The notes under the pieces are model-generated. The model was given only the letters and a program-made list of their open reading frames with translations, made no database searches and had not been told where the DNA came from. Position numbers and translations under genes: made by a program. From the IMG/VR virus record IMGVR_UViG_3300034181_000006, positions 1-29,570 of that record: a stretch of 29,570 nt of DNA. One strand, given 5' to 3'. The stretch comes from a virus. Shown here one piece after another: positions 1 to 28,418 of this stretch; the stretch's first letter is position 1, and each line of letters begins with the position of its first letter.

Positions 1-1067
1 ATCAAGGCTCCAGCCGCCGTTTGCAGCGCTGTCACCGTGTCTGCGTCCAAATAGCCCAGCGTGCCGGCAATAGTTGCCCCCGCCCAGCCTATGACGCCTA
101 TAACGGTCTTGAGCCCCTTGAACGCCTCGCCGCCGAACACAGTATCAATCTTGCTCGTGGGCTTTGGTTCCGGCACGGGCGAACGCTCGGCTTGCTGCAA
201 ATCACCCGGCAGCGGTTCAGGCATGGGCTCGACGGGGAACAGCTCTTTTAGCTTGGCTTCTGCCTTGCCCGCAACGTCGCGGATCTGTGTGTAAGTGGCT
301 TCCTTGAGCTTGGCCGTGACGGCTTCTGGCTCCGGCTCCACTTTTTCCGGGCTGAAGGCTTCCGCCAGCGCCTTGATAGCCAGGTTGATGGCCCCGCCCG
401 CTACAACGTTGACCAGCGTCGGCGCAATGAACGCCAACGGCTCGACCTCTTTCCTGAATTCATCCATGATGTCTTCCTCGTTTGCTTCCGGTTCCGGCAT
501 GAGCACCAGCCTTTCATTCATCAACGCCCGCAACAGCACCGCCGCGCCGATCTGTTCAGAAACTAAATCAGCTCGGTATTTGCCGTCCGTTGCGTATTTC
601 CCGCTCGCGTAAAGGTTCGAAAAGCTCCACAGGTAAGGCGAGTTAATGCCGCGATAGCGCATATAGCCCCAACCGTTATACCGCTCAAACTCATAAAGCG
701 CACGCGGAATTGACCAATCCTTGATCTGGTCAAGCTCCTTTAGCTTGATCGCATCAATTGCGCTCTCATCCCACGAGAACGGCGGTTGCCCTTTCTCTGG
801 CCTGCCGGGCGGCTCCTGCACGGTCCGCGCGGTGAGCGGGTCACCATTGTGCAGATGAGTGGTGAAGTCCTGCCCGCTTTCGAGATTGTGCGTTATGCCA
901 ATCCACCACCACGGAACGCCCGTCATGCGCTCGACGCGCTCGTAATTGTCGCGCGAAGCTGCAATATCATAGGCAACCTTCGTCGCGGCGTTCATTTGGG
1001 CGCGGCTTGAACGCATTTTCTTGAACAGATTGGCATAGCCGCGTTTTGTCGCTTCAAATGTCGGCAT
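1..1067 (-). CDS. Endolysin of the phage lysozyme family, C-terminus cut by window edge
   Basis: The frame is open from an ATG at 1067 to the left edge, giving 355 visible residues and no stop. Residues about 30-165 match a lysozyme-like peptidoglycan hydrolase family: a VPWWWI segment (51-56), then HNLES with candidate catalytic Glu63, a HNGDPLTART segment (73-82), PPGRP, a YEFERYNGWGY segment and SPYLW followed by GKY and DGKY. It should cleave peptidoglycan glycan strands at lysis. After residue about 190 there is a low-complexity Pro/Glu-rich linker (PEPE repeats), and near the left edge a hydrophobic stretch (VIGVIGWAGATIAG) that could be a membrane segment. The start lies two bases after the preceding stop, within GTTTAAACATG. 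The enzyme family is fairly secure; bond specificity is not. Confidence 0.8.
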   Translation of the reverse strand, partial: MPTFEATKRGYANLFKKMRSSRAQMNAATKVAYDIAASRDNYERVERMTGVPWWWIGITHNLESGQDFTTHLHNGDPLTARTVQEPPGRPEKGQPPFSWDESAIDAIKLKELDQIKDWSIPRALYEFERYNGWGYMRYRGINSPYLWSFSNLYASGKYATDGKYRADLVSEQIGAAVLLRALMNERLVLMPEPEANEEDIMDEFRKEVEPLAFIAPTLVNVVAGGAINLAIKALAEAFSPEKVEPEPEAVTAKLKEATYTQIRDVAGKAEAKLKELFPVEPMPEPLPGDLQQAERSPVPEPKPTSKIDTVFGGEAFKGLKTVIGVIGWAGATIAGTLGYLDADTVTALQTAAGAL

Positions 1068-1069
1068 GT

Positions 1070-1684
1070 TTAAACGCGTCCTATAATTGACAAACGCCCG
1101 TTCTCAAGCGTAACCTCGTCTCTCGTGTCGTACCAACCGTTTTCATCGAGTTGCAGGGGCTGTTCCGTGCCATCATTCAAGCGGTAGCCGCTTGCTAACC
1201 CTTTACTACGCACCCAAAGCACGCCCGCCCGTATTTCCCATTCGATCCCGCGCGCCGGGATACCGTCAAAAGCCACGCGCCCGACTTCCGTAATGCCGTA
1301 ATGATCATGAACGGGAACGTCAATTAAGGCTTGAATTCCGTTTTTAGCGTGCGGCCATAAATTCTTGTACAAAACTATACGCTGAAGCGTCCCACGCATC
1401 TCACCCGCATGCTTCTTAAGAAGTTTAAACGCAGGAGCCATACCCGAAAACACTATATGAGCCGTATGCGCTTGGTCCCAAGGTAAAACTTGTCCGCCAT
1501 CGCGCTTAACGGCTTCAACAAAGCTTATTTGGTAAATAGACGTTTCGATTTCTGCTGAACATGCAACTCGTTTATCCGCGTACTCACCTTTCCACGCTTC
1601 GCAACGCGCTTGAATAGCTTCTTCGGATATCAAAACTTCTTTAAGCGCTCCGGTTGTTCCGCTTGTCGTCGTTATGATCGTCAT
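1070..1684 (-). CDS. Mini adenylate-forming (ANL superfamily) domain protein
   Basis: A protein of 204 residues built almost only of the ANL (acyl-CoA synthetase / NRPS adenylation) core. Visible motifs are the A3 phosphate loop TSGTTGALK at residues 7-15 (Leu where Pro is usual), the A5 motif YGITE at 129-133, LWVRSKGLASGY at 156-167 matching the usual ELWVRG..GY strand, WYDTRD at 184-189 replacing the usual TGD but keeping the ribose-binding Asp, and GRLSIIGR at 196-203 matching the A8 hinge. It lacks the roughly 150-residue N-terminal subdomain and stops at the hinge, so the C-terminal domain with the catalytic Lys (A10) is absent. Complete enzymes make acyl-adenylates from ATP and a carboxylate; this one may only bind or may work in trans. 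Its ATG overlaps the stop of the upstream tail gene (ATGA). Local GC is low (22 of 60 bases at 1321-1380). Confidence 0.75.
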   Translation of the reverse strand: MTIITTTSGTTGALKEVLISEEAIQARCEAWKGEYADKRVACSAEIETSIYQISFVEAVKRDGGQVLPWDQAHTAHIVFSGMAPAFKLLKKHAGEMRGTLQRIVLYKNLWPHAKNGIQALIDVPVHDHYGITEVGRVAFDGIPARGIEWEIRAGVLWVRSKGLASGYRLNDGTEQPLQLDENGWYDTRDEVTLENGRLSIIGRV

Positions 1685-2337
1685 GTCACCCTCAAGAAAC
1701 CGCTTCCGAGCATATTAGCGCTGCCTTCATCATCCATATCAACCGCTATGTTAGCAGGTGACGAATTATAAAGCTTACGCGCAAGGTACGAAAAACTTGC
1801 ACTTACCGTCAAATCAATTTCACCGTCTTTTGCCGGTGACATGGTGCGAGGGTTTACGGTCCCGGTTAAGCTGCCGTCACTGTACGAACCTATTCCGACT
1901 AGCGGTGTTCCTTGCCCGCTGGCTAAAATTGTTTGCGAACTCGGATTGCCCGCTGTGACTTCCGTGTCTGGCGTTGACGCAACAATACTACTTATATTGG
2001 CATCGGCCCGATATAAGAAATAACCTTGAGCAATTGCAAGTGTTGCTGACATTGCTGCTGTTATCGTTGCGCTTGAGTCCGCCACTTCTGCAATCTTATA
2101 GCTGACTACAATACGCGACACGCCGCCGGCCATCGTAAACCATTGCGTGAAGCCGGACGGCGTTGCGGCTGCTGGCGGTGATCCTTTGTTTGCGGCGAAT
2201 TCGGCATAAATGATTAAATCGGTTCCTGATAACCCTGCCGGCAAATCGATGTCACCGTCATCTTGAGTACCCGCTGTAACGTAAGTCAGCGTAATGCCGC
2301 GCGCAACAAGCCCCCTTCGACGGATTAAACCACTCAT
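1681..2337 (-). CDS. Probable tail fibre accessory / receptor-region structural protein
   Basis: 218 residues, rich in Ser, Thr, Ala and Gly with alternating hydrophobic residues, typical of a beta-sandwich phage tail protein. The layout PSGF...SYKIAE...SATIT...A..GYFLYR recurs in phage tail-tip proteins. No enzymatic motif is visible. It starts at an ATG overlapping the stop of the tail-fibre gene (TAATG) and ends in an ATGA overlap with the ANL-like gene, so the three are probably translated together. Base composition is lower in GC than the capsid genes, as often seen in exchangeable host-range loci. The tail location rests on context; a precise role cannot be read from the sequence. Confidence 0.55.
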   Translation of the reverse strand: MSGLIRRRGLVARGITLTYVTAGTQDDGDIDLPAGLSGTDLIIYAEFAANKGSPPAAATPSGFTQWFTMAGGVSRIVVSYKIAEVADSSATITAAMSATLAIAQGYFLYRADANISSIVASTPDTEVTAGNPSSQTILASGQGTPLVGIGSYSDGSLTGTVNPRTMSPAKDGEIDLTVSASFSYLARKLYNSSPANIAVDMDDEGSANMLGSGFLRVT

Positions 2338-3545
2338 TAGCTTACCCCACCATGCGCGCCGTCAATGATCCACGTGTCTGAAGCTTCACGGAACAGCACC
2401 GCCGAAGCATATTGCGCGCTGATGTCTGCGCCGCCGCCCGTGACGCCGTTCAGGGTAACGCCGGATGGCGCTTGAATGGTCGTAACACCCGCGCCAAGCT
2501 GCTTGATTTCGCAAATCATGTTTGCCGGATAGTTCGCAGTCCCTCCGCCATTCGCCTGGATGTTCACCGTGTTCGCACTTGCGTTGTTCATAGTGATGAT
2601 TTTACCGGAGTCCGTGTTCGACAGGCTGTAGCTCGTGCTCGTGTCCGTTGTGCGGCCTGGCTCCCGTTGCGCGAGGTCATTGCCTTCGACCGCTACAATG
2701 CCCGCTGCGGATCTGCTAAGCGTCGTATCGGATGCATGCCCAAGCTCAAGTGTCCCGCAAGCGATGGCCAACGCCGTGCCGAGCTCAAGCCCGTGAGTGA
2801 AAGCAAAGCGGTCCTGGCTCTCATCCCAGAACATGCGCGGTGATCCGCTCACAATGACGCTCAATAAGTCCGCATCTGCGTCACTGCCCGGATTGACGTC
2901 CAGGCCCGCCGCACCGGTAAGCACGATCGTAGCCAGGCCCGCAAGCGCCAGCGCATCCGATATGGTGACACCAGTGCCTTGATACACATCCCCGCTGGTG
3001 CCGTTCGCGCGGATCAGTTCATTATCTGCCGGGCTGGCAGGCAGAGACACCGCACCCAACGATGCAACGGTGACGTTTTCAAAGTTGTCCGCAGCCGAAT
3101 TCCAGCCGAGCAGCGTATTTGCGACCGGGTTTGGGATAACCAGGCCCGATAGCGTGGAGCTTTCTGGCAGCAACAGCGATCGGCCGATTTTCTCGTTTAA
3201 ACGCTGTAATAACATAACAGCCAGATCGGCCGCACGCTCATGTGTGGCAGAAGGGAACGGGTCATTGCGCGGCCAGGCTGTCTGTTGCTGCAAAGGCGGA
3301 TCGCGCACGAGGGTGAGCGTTTCACCTACGGCAAGCGCGGTGACGAGCGTGACGGTAGCAGACGAAAAATCCGCTGCCAGCGTGACCGAATAATGCGTCG
3401 TCAACGTCAACGTCGTGTCAACGCCGCTTACCGTTTTCACGACGCTAATATGCTCTTCGTCGAACAATTTGAAATTGAACGAAAATGGCCCGGTAGACCC
3501 GGAGCCCGCATACTGCACGCGGGCAACTTCTTCATCGACCGTCAT
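2337..3545 (-). CDS. Tail fibre protein with T7-type N-terminal attachment region
   Basis: 402 residues from the ATG at 3545, which has an AGGGAA ribosome-binding site; an in-frame start further upstream would overlap the preceding gene. The first about 130 residues (MTVDEEVARVQYAGSG, then FSFNFKLFDEEHISVV, then a TLVRDPPLQQQT segment) match the N-terminal region by which T7-like fibres dock on the tail tube. The rest is repetitive and rich in Ala, Ser, Gly and Asn. It ends with a small domain containing SGKIITMNN and VLFREASDTWIIDG that resembles C-terminal regions of phage spike or fibre proteins. It should recognise the cell surface. It contains a GTTTAAAC site at 3195-3202 read as Leu-Asn. 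Confidence 0.75.
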   Translation of the reverse strand: MTVDEEVARVQYAGSGSTGPFSFNFKLFDEEHISVVKTVSGVDTTLTLTTHYSVTLAADFSSATVTLVTALAVGETLTLVRDPPLQQQTAWPRNDPFPSATHERAADLAVMLLQRLNEKIGRSLLLPESSTLSGLVIPNPVANTLLGWNSAADNFENVTVASLGAVSLPASPADNELIRANGTSGDVYQGTGVTISDALALAGLATIVLTGAAGLDVNPGSDADADLLSVIVSGSPRMFWDESQDRFAFTHGLELGTALAIACGTLELGHASDTTLSRSAAGIVAVEGNDLAQREPGRTTDTSTSYSLSNTDSGKIITMNNASANTVNIQANGGGTANYPANMICEIKQLGAGVTTIQAPSGVTLNGVTGGGADISAQYASAVLFREASDTWIIDGAHGGVS

Positions 3546-3547
3546 GG

Positions 3548-6142
3548 CTAATTCCCTGCCTGCCATTCTGAGGGCGCAAAGCTGCTATCGCCCGTAATGC
3601 TTTCAACGAAACCCGGCGTCCCAAGGAATTCGATCCCCTGATCTTTCTTGAGCCTTCGCTGCATGCGCCTAAGATAGCCTGGATTGGCCGCTTCCGTCAA
3701 AGCATTCCAGAACAGCCAATCCGTGGCGAGTTTGGTGTAAAACATGTTCGTGAACGGAGTAATAGACCGGGCAAACCGGATCACATCCCCGGACGGGTTT
3801 TCGCCGCGCACCAAAGCCGCATAAATCGACGAGAAGCGTTCAACCTCGCCCATCGTCGGCCCCAACGCATAGGCTGCCAGGCTTGTGCCGTGCCGGTTCC
3901 ACTGCCCAAACAGGTAATCTCCCATGATCGATGCGGCCCCGGCGCGCGTGAAGCCCGCCAGCACGGCTTGCGTCGGGAACTCATCCCATTGGCTTGTCGG
4001 GTCTTGCCCTTTGAGAAGCTGGTTCAAGCCATTCGACACAATACCGAGAATCGTACCGAGGATGAAGAATTGCATGAGCCCGCCGATAGCGCCCATGGAA
4101 GATTGCCCGCCGTAAATCTCCCGGCCCCACGTGCGGCGAAGCATGGCCACGGTGAAGCTCTTGAATTGCATGGCGAGCCGAAGCGCAGCTCCCAGCGGCG
4201 TATCGGCTGCCGCCCCTTGATAAAGTATAGCCCGTTCAGCCACGCCAGGTTGCAACACACCGTAATCCATACGATCGGCATAATATGCATAAAGCCTGTC
4301 TGCCATTTGCCGTCTGAAGGCTCCGTATTCATTCACAGTGCCTGTAGCTTGATTATAAGCGTCAATCGCCGCGTCCGGGATGGCAAGAGCATCACGGGGC
4401 GTCAAATATGTCCGGCCTTCATTACCTACCAGCCACGGCGCTTGACGCAAGGCGTCCCATTCATGTTCGCCAATCGAGAACGCTTGCATGATGCGCTGTT
4501 CCGGCGCGTCCATGTTCACCCACGGCGTGTCTTTATGCTGCCCGAGATTGCGGCTCATCATCACCATAACGGAACCTCGCGCCCGGTTGGTCATCGCCAT
4601 TGCGCCGGTATACCGGAAAAACCATTCCTGTATCTGGTGAATGCGTCCAGTGAAGCCGCCGCTTATGCGCGGATCGTTCACTTCCATGAGCGCGCCGTAC
4701 TGCCCTATCTCACCTTCGATGAACGCGTTCAGGAGTTCGGATACCTGCCGCTTTTCCGAACCATGCCCGCCCCGGATATACCCGCCAAGCGTGGCGGTAA
4801 GCCGATCTACAAACCCGACGCCTTGATATCGCAGCTCGCCCGCCACGCTGGCAAGATCCGTCAACTGTGCAAACGGCAGAAAGCCCAGCTTGGCCATGCG
4901 CTGAACGGCAAGCGTGTTGTGTACGATAAGGTTGGCCGTCTGATTGTGCACGTGATTTGCTTCGCCCGTCATATAGGACATCCACAAATCGTAATGCCTG
5001 CGTTGCTCGTTTAAACGCTGCACCAAGTCCATGTCGCCAGCGTCTCGCGCACGTTGCAACGACATGACGAAATCCGTTTCAAGCGCGCGCTTGGGGTTTG
5101 TTCCCCATACGCGCATTAATCCGGCGTCCCGGCTCATGCTCATGGCGCTTTGAAAGATAACCTGCGTTGGCGTCATTTCGCTGGCCTGCTCCATATAAGC
5201 CAGCCAATCGTCTGCGCTCTTGAAATGAATGACACGCCGCTCCGAAACCTTCTTGGCCATGTTCTGGCCTGCTGAATACGTGATGACGTCCAACTCTGCC
5301 GGATCATAGCTATCATGCAATCCGGACGCGATACGCCGGTATTGTTCACGCAACGCATTGTCTATGAATTCCGGCGCCCGGTTCGGATAAATCGTATCAA
5401 TATCGAAATGCCTTTGCGCAAGCGATACCCATTCATCCTCGCCCATGCGCCGCAGAAGGTGAGCGCTGTGCGTCGTTTTCGAAATATACCCGTTATAAGA
5501 CCCGACGAATGCCCCTTCAGTGTTGAGCATTTCCACGCCCGCACGCTGCATGTTATAGATAGCTTGTGCGATTTGCTGCGCTTGTCGATTGCCTGTAATA
5601 CCTGGCTGCCCGTTACGCATGTTCAGCTGTTCAAGTTCGCGCGCCCATTCCCGTTCCAAGCTTCGATTTGCAAACAGGCGATCGAGGCCATTCGCTTTAA
5701 GCTCCCGATCAAATGCGCCAAGCAGGTTATGCACGTTCCCTTCGATCGCTGCCGCCGCGCTATCCCGCGACCCGTGAAAAGGCGTGTTTGTACCGACAAG
5801 CTTGGATTGAATACCTAACGACGTGTCCGGCGCGGCATTATACGATATTTCACGCACGGCCCGCTTTTCCGCATCCATAACGACGTTTGCGCGCTGCTGT
5901 GCCGCTACAAGCCGGGCACGCGCTATGAGGATGTCACGCGCTTCGACAAGGCGCGCATTCGTCGTGCTTTCAAGCTCTTGCTGAATACGTCCTTGTTCCG
6001 GAGAGAACGGACCGAACACTTGCCGGTTGCGCGGGTGAATGTCGTACTGAATAAGCATTTCAACCACGTCCGCCACTTCTTCCTTGGTGAGCGTGGTTTG
6101 CGTCTCGTCAATGATCGTTCGAATGCAATGCTCTTGGCTCAT
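3548..6142 (-). CDS. Large internal virion / ejection-type protein
   Basis: 864 residues, alpha-helical and charged, with no recognised catalytic motif. Long Arg/Glu/Gln-rich helical stretches fill the first half. A hydrophobic segment near residues 680-705 (GLMQFFILGTILGIVSNGLN) could cross or insert into a membrane, and a moderately hydrophobic C-terminal region follows. Its size and place between the transglycosylase internal proteins and the fibre fit the DNA-ejection proteins (gp15/gp16 class) that leave the capsid and span the envelope. The start ATG overlaps the stop of the 59-codon gene upstream (ATGA). The role is inferred from position and composition. Confidence 0.6.
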   Translation of the reverse strand: MSQEHCIRTIIDETQTTLTKEEVADVVEMLIQYDIHPRNRQVFGPFSPEQGRIQQELESTTNARLVEARDILIARARLVAAQQRANVVMDAEKRAVREISYNAAPDTSLGIQSKLVGTNTPFHGSRDSAAAAIEGNVHNLLGAFDRELKANGLDRLFANRSLEREWARELEQLNMRNGQPGITGNRQAQQIAQAIYNMQRAGVEMLNTEGAFVGSYNGYISKTTHSAHLLRRMGEDEWVSLAQRHFDIDTIYPNRAPEFIDNALREQYRRIASGLHDSYDPAELDVITYSAGQNMAKKVSERRVIHFKSADDWLAYMEQASEMTPTQVIFQSAMSMSRDAGLMRVWGTNPKRALETDFVMSLQRARDAGDMDLVQRLNEQRRHYDLWMSYMTGEANHVHNQTANLIVHNTLAVQRMAKLGFLPFAQLTDLASVAGELRYQGVGFVDRLTATLGGYIRGGHGSEKRQVSELLNAFIEGEIGQYGALMEVNDPRISGGFTGRIHQIQEWFFRYTGAMAMTNRARGSVMVMMSRNLGQHKDTPWVNMDAPEQRIMQAFSIGEHEWDALRQAPWLVGNEGRTYLTPRDALAIPDAAIDAYNQATGTVNEYGAFRRQMADRLYAYYADRMDYGVLQPGVAERAILYQGAAADTPLGAALRLAMQFKSFTVAMLRRTWGREIYGGQSSMGAIGGLMQFFILGTILGIVSNGLNQLLKGQDPTSQWDEFPTQAVLAGFTRAGAASIMGDYLFGQWNRHGTSLAAYALGPTMGEVERFSSIYAALVRGENPSGDVIRFARSITPFTNMFYTKLATDWLFWNALTEAANPGYLRRMQRRLKKDQGIEFLGTPGFVESITGDSSFAPSEWQAGN

Positions 6143-9328: not shown

Positions 9329-11974
9329 CTACCTGAAATCGTAACCCGTATAAAGCTCTTGTCGCCGCATTTCATCCGTTTGCTGATACACATCCTTGAA
9401 AGCTTGTTCTTTCTTTTCGCGTACTTGATCCCACGTCAAAGTTATTGGCCTGCCGTCCCGGTAATTCCACATTTTCCCGCCGACAACAAAACCGACGCCG
9501 GAGTCATCGGGAAGCGTTACCCATTTTCCTTCGCGCGCTAGCCAATCTCGCGTACGCCGCTGCAAATACTCGGTACTCAAAGCCGCACGCAGTTCCGTGT
9601 TCCCGGCTGCAAACAGCTGGATATTCCCTTCGCGTGTCAAATTGCGATGCTCTTGTTCAAGCGTCACTTCAAGGCCGTCAAAATATCCAGGCTTTGGCAC
9701 GCGAATATTCATATAGCTGGAATTTTCCATTTGGTATTTGAACCCCAGCAAATCGTCATAGGCACGCTCTGCCGCCGTCGAAACGCTATCTCCGCTTGTC
9801 ACATACATCGCCGCAAGCTTCTTGGCTTGTTCAAATAGCGTATTTATGTGCGGCGAAGCTGACACTTGAAAACCGGCAGATGCGATATACGGGTCAAACT
9901 CCGATTGCAAGTCTTCCTCAATGCTTAGCTTATCGGCCTTGGGTATGACTTTGGTCAAATCCTCAAAGCTTTTATCGTGAACTTGCGCCAGCGCTTGCGC
10001 CGCATGCGGCTGAATGCCCGACGTAATGACTTTAAGCGGTGCCGTCATGGACTCGCGCAAGTCTTCATAAACGCGCGGCCACTTATTACCCCACATCTGT
10101 TTAAACGCGGTAAGCTGGGCAACCACGAGCCGTGCGCCGTTATCCGTTTCAAGCGTTTGCCCGAGCGTGGCAGCTATCGTTTCTGCATAGGATTTCGGGA
10201 CAAGCTTCCGCGCTTCTATAGGCACGCCAAGTTTGTCATACTCTTCCACGAGCATAGCCGTGTAATGGTCTGTAGCTGCTTTCGCCGCTTTCGGGTCTTC
10301 CGGATTTAGCGTGGAAGCTACGCCAAGTGCTTCCTTAAGCTCCGGATTGTATGTCACAGCATAACTCGCTGCATCGTCAGCAATCGCATTACGGATGTTT
10401 TGGCTTTCAGCCTTCGCCCCGTAATACCCGCGCAACCGCTCGTCGTAAAATGCATCGCCTTTTTCCGGCTTCAAGCCTTCCACATATTGGCCGTGATCGC
10501 GTAACGGCATGCGCTTCAGGTCGTAACCGGCTTTGGCCGCTACCGTCGCAGCCTGGAATTCACCGTAAGCGATGCCACCTTTGTTCGCGCCGTAAGCCGC
10601 AATGAATTCTTGCTCAGTCGGGACGTCCGAAGCCCCGCCGCGTTCACTCGTTTCCGCAAGGGAGTTATCTGCACGCTGTTTAAAAGCTGCATTTTGCTGC
10701 ACTTGACGCTTACGTATTTCAGCTTCTGCGGCTCCGTACAGCTGGTCACGGCTTTCAAACGTCAAATCGGCATAATAGCCCGGCGCGCCCGAACTTTTAT
10801 CAAAGCTCGTTTCTCCGCCCATCTTCTTACCGAAGATTTTGTAGACATCCGCAACCGATCGGCCCGGCTTGAATATGCCTGGATTAGCTTTTACTGCGGC
10901 GCTCGATACAAACCCGCGCGCATCTGCGTCCGGATGCTTCAATACGGCGTTGAGGAAGCGCGGCCCGCCACCTTCACCAAGAAAATGCATCATGTAGAGA
11001 TTTGCATTCGTCGGAGGGTACCCCGCCGTTTCGAGCAACTTCGCGTTATCCTGCGTGAATGCGCGGATGGCGATCTCTTGCGCTGCAGGCTTGAACCTGT
11101 CTTGCTCTGACAAGCCAAGTTCTGGGTGCCGCTTAAGCAGATTTGACCACGTTGATTTTGTAAACTGGTACGGCCCAAAAGCGCTAGACGTGTCCGAACC
11201 GATATTACGCCCACCGCTCTCCGTTGTTTTCAAACGCGAGTAGTATTCAACGCCCGTATTTGCTTTGGCTCCGGATACGGATTGCAGATCTTGTACAAGC
11301 CAATCCCGGACTTTCTCCGGCCGGTCGCGCAAATCGCCCTGAACTGCCGCATAACTTAATTTCTTTCCCAAATCCATATACAGCTTTTGCTTGACGTCCG
11401 AGGAAACGTCCAAGCTATGTATGGTTTCTGCGATAGTGGCTTGCGCAATTGCGTAAGTGGACTTGCGCGAGTCCGGATCTGCTACAAAAAGCTGATTAGC
11501 CGACGTGTCGATAGCTTTCGCAGTGTTCAGGATACGATTGTCACGACGCTGTTGCTGCTCAAAACCAAGCGAACGCCCATTAAGCTGCACCTCATACGGC
11601 AGCATCTTATCCCGGAAAGCCTTTCGCGCGGCTTCAGTTTCCAGCCCCTCAGAAACTTCATTCAGTCGCTCATTATACCGGCCCATTAAATCGGGAGTAA
11701 AGCCCGGCGCACCTGGCTCCGCGCTTTCCGACCGCTGCACGAATTCCGTGTCAATCTCCATACGCAGATCAGCTGCGGCACGAGCTGCATTGGCTTGCGC
11801 ATCCTGCATTTGCGTATGCTCGTAAGCGCTGAAAGCGCGCTGTGCTTCATCTGCGGCGGAGCGAATATCCGCGCCCACGTCATAAACTGCGGCCCCGCCT
11901 GGATCAAGGCGCGGCGCTGCCCCAGCACTGCCGGACTGAACACGTTCAGTGTATTCAGGAATTCGGAAAGCCAT
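9329..11974 (-). CDS. Internal virion protein with lytic transglycosylase (SLT) domain
   Basis: 881 residues from the ATG at 11974, which has an AAGGG site and lies 10 bases after the previous stop. A soluble-lytic-transglycosylase domain sits at about residues 245-370: catalytic Glu252 in KTTESGGRN, then SSAFGPYQFTKSTW, then a FLGEGGGPRFL segment resembling the usual HxxG region. It should open peptidoglycan during DNA ejection, like T7 gp16. The N-terminal 240 residues are helical and Gln/Arg/Ala-rich (EAQRAFSAYEH, GFEQQQRRDN), and the remaining 500 are long helical regions without further motifs. GTTTAAAC at 10099-10106 lies within the gene. Confidence 0.8.
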   Translation of the reverse strand: MAFRIPEYTERVQSGSAGAAPRLDPGGAAVYDVGADIRSAADEAQRAFSAYEHTQMQDAQANAARAAADLRMEIDTEFVQRSESAEPGAPGFTPDLMGRYNERLNEVSEGLETEAARKAFRDKMLPYEVQLNGRSLGFEQQQRRDNRILNTAKAIDTSANQLFVADPDSRKSTYAIAQATIAETIHSLDVSSDVKQKLYMDLGKKLSYAAVQGDLRDRPEKVRDWLVQDLQSVSGAKANTGVEYYSRLKTTESGGRNIGSDTSSAFGPYQFTKSTWSNLLKRHPELGLSEQDRFKPAAQEIAIRAFTQDNAKLLETAGYPPTNANLYMMHFLGEGGGPRFLNAVLKHPDADARGFVSSAAVKANPGIFKPGRSVADVYKIFGKKMGGETSFDKSSGAPGYYADLTFESRDQLYGAAEAEIRKRQVQQNAAFKQRADNSLAETSERGGASDVPTEQEFIAAYGANKGGIAYGEFQAATVAAKAGYDLKRMPLRDHGQYVEGLKPEKGDAFYDERLRGYYGAKAESQNIRNAIADDAASYAVTYNPELKEALGVASTLNPEDPKAAKAATDHYTAMLVEEYDKLGVPIEARKLVPKSYAETIAATLGQTLETDNGARLVVAQLTAFKQMWGNKWPRVYEDLRESMTAPLKVITSGIQPHAAQALAQVHDKSFEDLTKVIPKADKLSIEEDLQSEFDPYIASAGFQVSASPHINTLFEQAKKLAAMYVTSGDSVSTAAERAYDDLLGFKYQMENSSYMNIRVPKPGYFDGLEVTLEQEHRNLTREGNIQLFAAGNTELRAALSTEYLQRRTRDWLAREGKWVTLPDDSGVGFVVGGKMWNYRDGRPITLTWDQVREKKEQAFKDVYQQTDEMRRQELYTGYDFR

Positions 11975-11984
11975 TTGTAAGCCC

Positions 11985-12470
11985 TTACCGTATTTGTACG
12001 CCAACAGACTGGCCATAGCCGCTCAAAAGTTGCGTGCCCGCGCCTAGGACAGCACCGAACATACGCGGCCCCCGGCTCTTTTTCTCCGCGCTTGCTTTGA
12101 AAGACTCATTTGCCGCGCTGACTTCTTGCCCGCGCGCTCGCAATTCACCTTTGTACATTGTCGTCAATGCGTCAAGTTCGATTGCCGTGCGCGTAGCTTC
12201 CCCCGCTTTTTCAACGCTGAAGCCTTTAGGGGCAAAACCGCTTTGGGCAAAAGCTGCAAATTGCTGTGCTTCCTCACGGCGACCTTCCCGCCGCACGCGA
12301 TTTGCATCCGCGTTTGCCAGGCTCAATTCGTCAAGCGCGGCCTGCCTCAAATATGTGGCGTTCTGCTCGTACACCGCTTGTCGACCTCGGGACGCGGCAT
12401 TGCCTGCGAAAGCGCTCGCCATCGTTCCGACCGCCTTAACCCCGCCGAGGATCAAAGGTATCGCTTCCAT
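11985..12470 (-). CDS. Internal virion protein, gp14-like
   Basis: 161 residues. A hydrophobic Gly/Ala N-terminus (PLILGGVKAVGTMASAFAG) is followed by an Ala/Arg/Glu-rich helical body (RREGRREEAQQFAAFAQSGF) and a second Gly-rich hydrophobic patch near the C-terminus (GAVLGAGTQLLSGYG). This matches the pattern of T7 gp14-type proteins, which form the outer-membrane part of the ejection channel. AGAGG seven bases before the ATG supports the start. It overlaps the gp13-like gene by 35 bases and precedes the transglycosylase protein, the order expected for this module. Confidence 0.65.
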   Translation of the reverse strand: MEAIPLILGGVKAVGTMASAFAGNAASRGRQAVYEQNATYLRQAALDELSLANADANRVRREGRREEAQQFAAFAQSGFAPKGFSVEKAGEATRTAIELDALTTMYKGELRARGQEVSAANESFKASAEKKSRGPRMFGAVLGAGTQLLSGYGQSVGVQIR

Positions 12471-25573: not shown

Positions 25574-26157
25574 CCGTCTAACCAATCATCCATTTCAGCT
25601 TCGAGCGCTTCACTATCGTCCGGCTGCGTCGGGGGCGGCAATAGCCCGCGTTCCTCAAGCACTTCATAAGGCAGCTCAAGGGATACGCCTTCAAGCCGCT
25701 TATCTTCCTCACCGCCAAGCATGTTGGCGTCGTCACGCAGATCCGGCGCGATCTTTTCAACAGCCTTCAGCAACGCTTTGAGCTTATCATGGTGCTTTAC
25801 CTCTATCGTCACATCGCCTAATTGCGGATCAACCGTCCGTTTGAAGGATTGGATAGCGTAGGAAATATCAGGAGGCAAATCCGCGATATCCGAAATGCTT
25901 TCCACGTCTGCCACATCCGCGATATTGGAATTTATGACAGCCATAACCTTCAGCATGAGTGAAAACCGATCGAAACCAAGCGTGCGCAAGCGTATGTATT
26001 GCGTGCGCTGAAACTCCGCATCGAATAAGGCATCTTCGAACCATCGGCGGTAAAGATTTGGCGGAATACCGAGCGCCGCAGCTGCACGCGCAACACTACC
26101 GCCGTGTTCGTACACGCACGCGTCGATGAATTCACGCTGTTCACTCGATATCGTCAT
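25570..26157 (-). CDS. terS: Terminase small subunit
   Basis: 195 residues. The N-terminus (REFIDACVYEHGGSVARAAA, then ALGIPPNLYRRWFEDALFDAEF) is a helix-turn-helix typical of small terminases that recognise packaging sites. A helical centre (DKLKALLKAVEKIAPDLRDD) probably supports oligomerisation, and the C-terminus is acidic (DDSEALEAEMDDWLDG), probably for contact with the large subunit. It overlaps the endonuclease gene by 17 bases and the large subunit by four. Confidence 0.8.
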   Translation of the reverse strand: MTISSEQREFIDACVYEHGGSVARAAAALGIPPNLYRRWFEDALFDAEFQRTQYIRLRTLGFDRFSLMLKVMAVINSNIADVADVESISDIADLPPDISYAIQSFKRTVDPQLGDVTIEVKHHDKLKALLKAVEKIAPDLRDDANMLGGEEDKRLEGVSLELPYEVLEERGLLPPPTQPDDSEALEAEMDDWLDG

Positions 26158-26467
26158 TCGCTCTCAGCAAGTTCAAGAAATCCACGGCTGGCATCGTCAC
26201 AAGCCAGGGCTTATTATTGCGTCGGTGAGCCACAATAGGCAAGGCGCAATCGCTCGCCGCGTCCCTTATCGCTTGAGCCATGGCTGCGTCAACATTGAGG
26301 CGTTCGACCCGCTTCACTTCCACATGGCAGCCCGGCAGGCCAACCACGTCCTGTCCATCGATCCCGTTATACTGCTGGCCCCGGCGAGCTTCGCCCCAGC
26401 CGTGATCACGCAAGAGCCTGGCGAACTCGCGCTCACCGGCCTTGCCCTTCCTATTCCCGTTCTTCAT
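26141..26467 (-). CDS. PD-(D/E)XK endonuclease, Holliday-junction-resolvase-like
   Basis: 108 residues. Motifs are a basic start (KNGNRKGKAGEREFARLLR) with Glu12/Glu14, then NGIDGQDVVGLPG with Asp40, then HVEVKRVERLN with Glu50-Val-Lys52. This spacing (E, then D-x9-E-x-K) is the active site of the Hjc/VRR-like nuclease fold. It could resolve branched DNA before packaging, which fits its place as first gene of the packaging operon, ahead of the terminase pair. Its Shine-Dalgarno AGGTGAG lies in a hairpin stem (26472-26505). Confidence 0.72.
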   Translation of the reverse strand: MKNGNRKGKAGEREFARLLRDHGWGEARRGQQYNGIDGQDVVGLPGCHVEVKRVERLNVDAAMAQAIRDAASDCALPIVAHRRNNKPWLVTMPAVDFLNLLRANDDIE

Positions 26468-27564: not shown

Positions 27565-27596
27565 ACCTATTCACAGCTAAAACAAAGGGCAATATG

Positions 27597-28418
27597 ATGA
27601 CAAAGAAATCAAACTTCATTGAGCGCGAAGAAAAGCGTGACGTCAAAATCAACGGCAAGTGCAAGACCTTCAAAATTCGGCCTTCGATCTGGAAACAGTT
27701 CGTCAAGCTGGCCAAGGCCGCAAATCTTACGAACGAACAAGCGGCCAAAGACGCACAACGCGAATGCAACGGCACGCTCAAAGAGGCGATTGAAAAGTGG
27801 GTGCTTCGCCAAGTTGAAACGATCTACAGCTTTGAGAACCGTGAAGCCTGGCTTGAAGCACTCGTGGAAGCGATGAAGCCCGAATTCGCGGTGCGCGGCT
27901 GCCCGATAACACGCCCTATCAAGGTATCGATCGGCTTCACATCCAAGGGTGCACGCAGCAAAGCAATCGGCGAGTGCTGGAATTCAGAAGCGAGTGGCGA
28001 TGGCGCAAATCAGATCTTTATCTCACCTTACATTGAAGACGTGGTAAAGCTGGCTGGCATCCTTACTCACGAAATGATCCATGCATGGGATGATTGCAAG
28101 AATGCCCATAAGGCACCCTTCAAACGCGGGCAAAAAGCTATGGGCCTTGAAGGCAAGGCAACCGAGTGCGTGGACGGTGCGCAGTGGCGGGAATGGGCTT
28201 TGCCGCTTATTGAAGGCGTCGGGCCGATGCCGCATGCATCGCTTACAAGGCTGCCGACAAAGAAGAAACAAACGACGCGCATGCTTAAAGTGCAGTGCCC
28301 GTGCTGCGAATTCACTTTCCGCGCGGCAAAAACCTCCCTTGAAGCAGCTTGTGTAGACGGCAAGCTGGTTTGCCCAAGCCCGGCATGCGCTACGGACATT
28401 GAACTAGCTTTCGATTGA
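27597..28418 (+). CDS. SprT-like zinc metalloprotease
   Basis: 273 residues from the second of two adjacent ATGs, seven bases after AAAGGG; the first ATG at 27594 is only four bases away. The zinc site HEMIH is at residues 158-162, and a third ligand is likely in the following NAHKAPFKRGQKAMGL segment, which matches the SprT 'HGxxF' region. The C-terminus has a zinc-ribbon pattern, CPCC about 25 residues before CPSPAC. SprT/Spartan proteins cut proteins crosslinked to DNA; phage versions are often near replication genes. The N-terminal 80 residues are a basic helical extension outside the family core. Confidence 0.8.
   Translation: MTKKSNFIEREEKRDVKINGKCKTFKIRPSIWKQFVKLAKAANLTNEQAAKDAQRECNGTLKEAIEKWVLRQVETIYSFENREAWLEALVEAMKPEFAVRGCPITRPIKVSIGFTSKGARSKAIGECWNSEASGDGANQIFISPYIEDVVKLAGILTHEMIHAWDDCKNAHKAPFKRGQKAMGLEGKATECVDGAQWREWALPLIEGVGPMPHASLTRLPTKKKQTTRMLKVQCPCCEFTFRAAKTSLEAACVDGKLVCPSPACATDIELAFD

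Follow-up and report, generated by a model that had tools for sequence, protein, structure and literature searches.

Can a protein reduced to the central 200 residues of an ANL (AMP-binding) enzyme be of use to a phage, or is it only what is left of a captured gene? This question is raised by a 204-codon open reading frame in an IMG/VR virus record, whose whole stretch of 29,570 nucleotides was analysed and is referred to here as the window. The record is classed as linear and is possibly a fragment, and nearly all of its large genes are encoded by the minus strand and make up the structural module of a T7-like podovirus, with terminase, portal (head-tail adaptor), major head protein, tail tube proteins, internal virion proteins and tail fibre. 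The features needed for the argument are as follows.

3..1067, minus strand: lysin-like protein that runs off the contig, 36% identical to the gene in the same place in the related phage L009
1070..1684, minus strand: stand-alone ANL core of 204 residues, from the P-loop to the hairpin ahead of the hinge, recognised from motifs and profile matches
1076..1099, minus strand: GRLSIIGR hairpin, residues 196-203; the protein stops one residue further on, short of the hinge Asp
1118..1138, minus strand: GWYDTRD, residues 183-189, with the predicted ribose-binding Asp189, from the sequence and the alignment of relatives
1286..1300, minus strand: A5 motif YGITE, residues 129-133, from the sequence and the alignment of relatives
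1640..1666, minus strand: A3 phosphate loop TSGTTGALK, residues 7-15, conserved when compared with 20 relatives
1682..1693, minus strand: Shine-Dalgarno-like GAGGG and ATG, with the ATGA overlap with the upstream stop
1681..2337, minus strand: coupled upstream gene (218 residues), equally low in GC, whose relatives in other phages lie beside fibre or tail-type genes
2337..3566, minus strand: tail fibre with a T7-type N-terminal attachment region, from profile matches

The ANL frame lies at 1070-1684 of the minus strand, and the plus strand is riddled with stops over the same interval. The start codon and the stop of the upstream gene overlap as ATGA, GAGGG lies 4 nt ahead of the ATG, and the ATG of the lysin-like gene is found 2 nt past the stop of the ANL frame. 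The original prediction placed this coupled gene behind two tail proteins and ahead of the lysin: the overlap and the 2-nt gap are present in the sequence, but the adjacent gene encodes a variable-slot protein, and a T7-fibre-type N-terminus is found only in the next gene further upstream. The product of 3-1067, which from its position we take to be the lysin, has no Pfam match. A frameshifted or longer ANL gene was considered and rejected, since the in-frame upstream extension amounts to 10 codons only (214 residues), and six-frame searches of the record with PF00501 and PF13193 revealed nothing besides this frame.

Elsewhere in the window, the product of 27594-28418 (plus strand) matches phrog_6361, of unknown function, and has weak similarity to M76/SprT-like metallopeptidases, while 26141-26467 (minus strand) gives a weak match to a phage PDDEXK endonuclease (PF24608, E = 1.2e-5, just below the cut-off). 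An internal protein of 895 residues (9329-12016, minus strand) has PHROG matches to transglycosylase/endolysin, and is a probable virion-borne wall-degrading enzyme according to these matches.

Homology to MenE-type ligases

A custom profile, obtained from full-length ANL enzymes cut to the matching stretch and with the phage protein left out, scored the latter at 74.7 bits over residues 3-204, against 10.5 bits for the best of 5000 shuffles, which excludes the reading as a chance open frame. Similarly, a profile of short actinobacterial MenE-type enzymes gave 71.7 bits, against 8.2 for shuffles. The outcome of the HMM search proposed with the original prediction, against Pfam AMP-binding (PF00501), was mixed: there is a match at E = 2.7e-5 (residues 3-133 on profile positions 166-323), but its 23.6 bits fall short of the curated gathering cut-off of 29.9 bits, probably because about half of the 384-position model is absent by truncation. 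As judged from these comparisons, the phage protein is a genuine ANL homologue by descent, along its whole length.

The closest relatives of the core are MenE-type ligases. The NCBIfam MenE model PRK07824 matches at E = 4.3e-11 and 42.5 bits, below the equivalog cut-off of 345; a search of PDB sequences returned E. coli MenE chains at 5e-6; and an actinobacterial short MenE-type enzyme (L111) is 30% identical along residues 3-204 (a local search against a small set gave E = 1.6e-13). Identity to any relative stays below about 47%, over partial stretches. In phylogenetic trees the core sits on a very long branch, because of which it finds no placement among ANL families. Structure prediction by AlphaFold yielded a mean pLDDT of 44 with a 13-sequence alignment and of 41 with the single sequence, only about residues 146-203, the C-terminal barrel, being partly confident. 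When this modelled barrel was used in Foldseek, the top matches were MenE and other ANLs, over about 60-70 columns and none with E below 0.001; the match to E. coli MenE (E = 1.7e-3, about 65 columns) concerns this C-terminal end only.

Comparison with known systems places the core closest to the short MenE-type o-succinylbenzoate-CoA ligases of Actinomycetota (PRK07824-like), whose open frames are of about 380-420 residues (458 in L111). These enzymes and the phage protein are colinear from P-loop to A8, with no extra loops, and in both a compact FDG(I/V)P stretch links A5 to A7. Unlike the phage core, however, the actinobacterial enzymes carry about 80-100 residues before the P-loop, retain the A4 His and the GG motif, and have the whole C-terminal domain, A10 Lys included. 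E. coli MenE (PDB 5c5h, 6nj0), the best solved relative both by sequence and by the modelled barrel, differs in being a full two-domain enzyme of about 450 residues. Isolated ANL N-terminal domains without the C-terminal part have proved stable enough for crystal structures, namely those of PqsA (5oe3-5oe6, with adenylates) and BasE (3o83), but these are artificial constructs of about 390-440 residues in which the first subdomain is kept.

An ANL core is also common to the short ligases encoded alongside ACP and SDR in surface-sugar cassettes, found in phage record L079 and in Burkholderia stagnalis (L075). The L079 enzyme resembles the phage core in its short N-terminus (374 residues in total) and in its location in a phage record, whereas both ligases keep the C-terminal domain and partner genes, with 24-41% identity by stretch. 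The L079 cassette (L079:4402-10342), with a terminase nearby, includes a NeuB-like fragment, a GNAT, a CMP-sugar-type cytidylyltransferase, the ACP, the SDR, the ANL and a further large gene, names that were read directly from the sequences, and is apparently a phage-borne set for acyl modification of surface sugars. In an isolate prophage (L069:4198-7146), a 982-residue protein has a full FAAL-type ANL joined to an ACP-like segment and an uncharacterised N-terminal region, and its gene adjoins an FkbM-like methyltransferase gene and phage-type genes.

Motifs kept and domains lost

Motifs of ANL enzymes are assigned to parts of their ligands by general knowledge of the family. Of the 22 positions at which 20 relatives show at least 90% invariance, the phage core retains 16, including the Ser, Gly and Lys of the P-loop, YGxTE, Arg159, GY, GW, Thr187, Asp189 and the Arg of the last GR; the phosphate, ribose and Mg motifs are intact. 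Every invariant from residue 129 onward is kept, as is all of the phosphate loop but Pro14. The six losses (L14, T48, Q52, F55, A83 and Y106) all fall within residues 14-106: the A4 His is replaced by Gln52, and the GG motif of the adenine/acyl pocket is lost, with a Gly changed to Tyr106; another Gly is changed to Phe55. Full-length relatives that are similarly distant lose at most three invariants.

The protein begins one strand ahead of the P-loop, with the first N-terminal subdomain absent, and terminates at GRV, before the hinge Asp, with the whole C-terminal domain and the A10 Lys absent. In B. subtilis MenE, this A10 Lys (K471) touches the alpha phosphate of ATP (PMC11619455). No match to AMP-binding_C (PF13193) was found in six frames of the whole 29.6-kb record at E up to 1, and no partner ACP or transferase was present among the genes scanned in it. 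The original prediction was right that the N-terminal subdomain and the C-terminal domain with its catalytic Lys are missing, and that A3, A5 and WYxTxD occur in order with a final GR element within 204 residues; what it called the A8 hinge, however, is just the hairpin before the hinge.

Origin of the gene, its slot and its rarity

The GC content of the ANL core gene is 0.496 and that of its neighbour at 1681-2337 is 0.505, as compared with 0.575 for the capsid gene, and in both genes of the pair GC3 is near 0.46. The other genes measured have GC of 0.52-0.58 and GC3 of 0.55-0.73. Acquisition, as previously proposed from the difference to the capsid genes, agrees with these values: the gene is probably of outside origin and, given that its low GC and GC3 are shared with the neighbour, the two were probably acquired together.

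The slot between fibre and lysin is variable. In relatives whose internal virion protein is 62-64% identical (L006 and L008-L010), it holds a 103-residue protein (L008-L010) or an unrelated 252-residue protein (L006), and no ANL gene; in L009 the whole record lacks a match. A likeness seen by eye between the L006 slot gene and the neighbour at 1681-2337 was discarded as unsupported (BLASTP, E = 0.27). All four relatives encode, directly before the lysin, a 122-residue protein with a hydrophobic stretch, perhaps holin- or spanin-like, of which no counterpart precedes the lysin in the window.

Searches for further copies indicate that the trimmed form is very rare; it is known from one sequence. 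The core has no PHROG match, and in 50,697 phage records no comparable short protein was found, the sole match being an unannotated 2.5-kb record with an E. coli-like menE, in keeping with the earlier statement that this is not a described phage gene type. In IMG/VR, single-protein and two-sequence profile searches gave no close relative, and a third search gave only the full-length enzyme of L079; the DNA pattern for GWYDTRD occurs in nine contigs, with an ANL, likewise full-length, only in prophage L069, and since such patterns reach close relatives only, further copies are possible. About 1,080 genomes, drawn in sets of 398, 385 and 296 from the phylum and class of an alphaproteobacterial genome and from the phylum of a Mycolicibacterium, were also covered: among the matches listed, all lie in open frames of at least 354 residues, except one cut by a contig end. 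No paper on phage ANL or AMP-binding genes beside tail or lysis genes was found in the literature. Many of the phage records that match ANL queries (OR84xxxx, CAKLQ) resemble host genome contigs, with fadK, acs and menE, and look like contaminated depositions; judged from record sizes and annotation, most "phage" matches to ANLs come from host DNA, in assemblies that are unannotated or of bacterial scale.

A reduced binding core or a relic

We tentatively favour, with somewhat less than even confidence, the explanation that a captured ligase was cut down to a nucleotide- or adenylate-binding core, and that it is neither a working ligase nor a tail-acylating enzyme. A reduced binding protein appears most likely because the residues that contact the nucleotide have been kept and the parts needed for ligase work have not, and because the gene has an intact frame and intact translation signals and encodes a protein whose two ends coincide with subdomain edges. 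From the homology over 204 residues, the motifs kept and lost, both boundaries, the gene context and the absence from relatives, we infer the following course of events. A MenE-like acyl-CoA-ligase-type gene would have been captured, together with its tail-adjacent neighbour, into the variable fibre-lysin slot, and cut back until only the middle of the N-terminal domain was left. Its product would be a late protein, translated along with those of the tail genes, and might bind ATP, AMP or an acyl-adenylate weakly through the phosphate, Mg and ribose residues that it keeps. With the C-terminal domain and its A10 Lys gone, and without the A4 His and the GG motif, it would not work as an ordinary acyl ligase. 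Such a reused module could act in the late phase on lysis, on the host energy state, or via a partner. As a precedent, an N-terminal fragment of firefly luciferase retains weak activity (PMC12064465), although this precedent, like those of PqsA and BasE, is limited because these fragments keep the first subdomain (the first ~100 or more residues). The low pLDDT values and the singleton status also count against a reduced core, and the six lost invariants and the very long branch are compatible with decay as well.

A serious rival that ranks close behind, and which we consider a real possibility, is that a fragment of a bacterial ANL gene was captured by chance and that its frame is still open but functionless and on its way out. 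The single known copy, the loss of both flanking domains and of mid-domain invariants, the long branch and the lack of an ANL gene in the closest phage relatives all fit with this. An intact 204-codon frame with a ribosome-binding site, tightly coupled on both sides and ending at domain edges, is less expected of such a relic, as is the retention of nucleotide-contact residues at so low an identity to any relative; moreover, phages tend to purge useless DNA fast.

Less likely than either of these are three other explanations. In the first, a C-terminal domain, and perhaps an ACP, would come from the host or from phage genome beyond the contig and work together with the core in trans. The stop falls just ahead of the hinge, where a split would be natural, the record is possibly a fragment, and luciferase halves split at 436/437 can complement each other (PMC12064465); nevertheless, the 29.6 kb lack an AMP-binding_C match, the genes scanned include no ACP or transferase, and the N-terminal subdomain is missing too, all of which makes a split enzyme unlikely. 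We know of no natural split ANL of this kind. Modification of acyl groups on the tail or host surface, by analogy with the glycan cassettes, finds a parallel in the full short ANL of L079 with its ACP, SDR and sugar-nucleotide genes, yet it is highly improbable for a protein devoid of the catalytic Lys and acyl-pocket motifs, and those partners are all missing from the window genes that were scanned. Equally improbable is a virion or assembly component that uses the fold but not the nucleotide site, as could be suggested by the location behind two tail-region genes and the coupled translation: PHROGs hold no virion homologue, and nucleotide contacts that are better kept than the remainder would be unexpected if the fold alone mattered.

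The original prediction of a new phage function gained no positive support: no second copy was found, the substrate-side motifs are degraded, and the record yielded neither a partner ACP or transferase nor a C-terminal domain. What we have is a very reduced form within a known superfamily. The bolder proposal is that a stand-alone core of ~200 residues can fold and hold ATP or an acyl-adenylate with neither flanking domain present, and acts as a late podovirus protein at the adhesion-lysis junction; it might, for example, be a nucleotide-responsive lysis partner, or might trap or inhibit a host pathway that runs through acyl-adenylates, such as menaquinone synthesis. This we consider doubtful. 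If the gene is a relic, it would illustrate how an enzyme is captured and eroded in a variable slot of a phage genome, and would be of limited interest. If, on the other hand, the core is functional, it would add a gene type to the accessory repertoire of phages, and a natural protein made of the central 200 residues alone would represent the smallest nucleotide-holding unit of the ANL fold.
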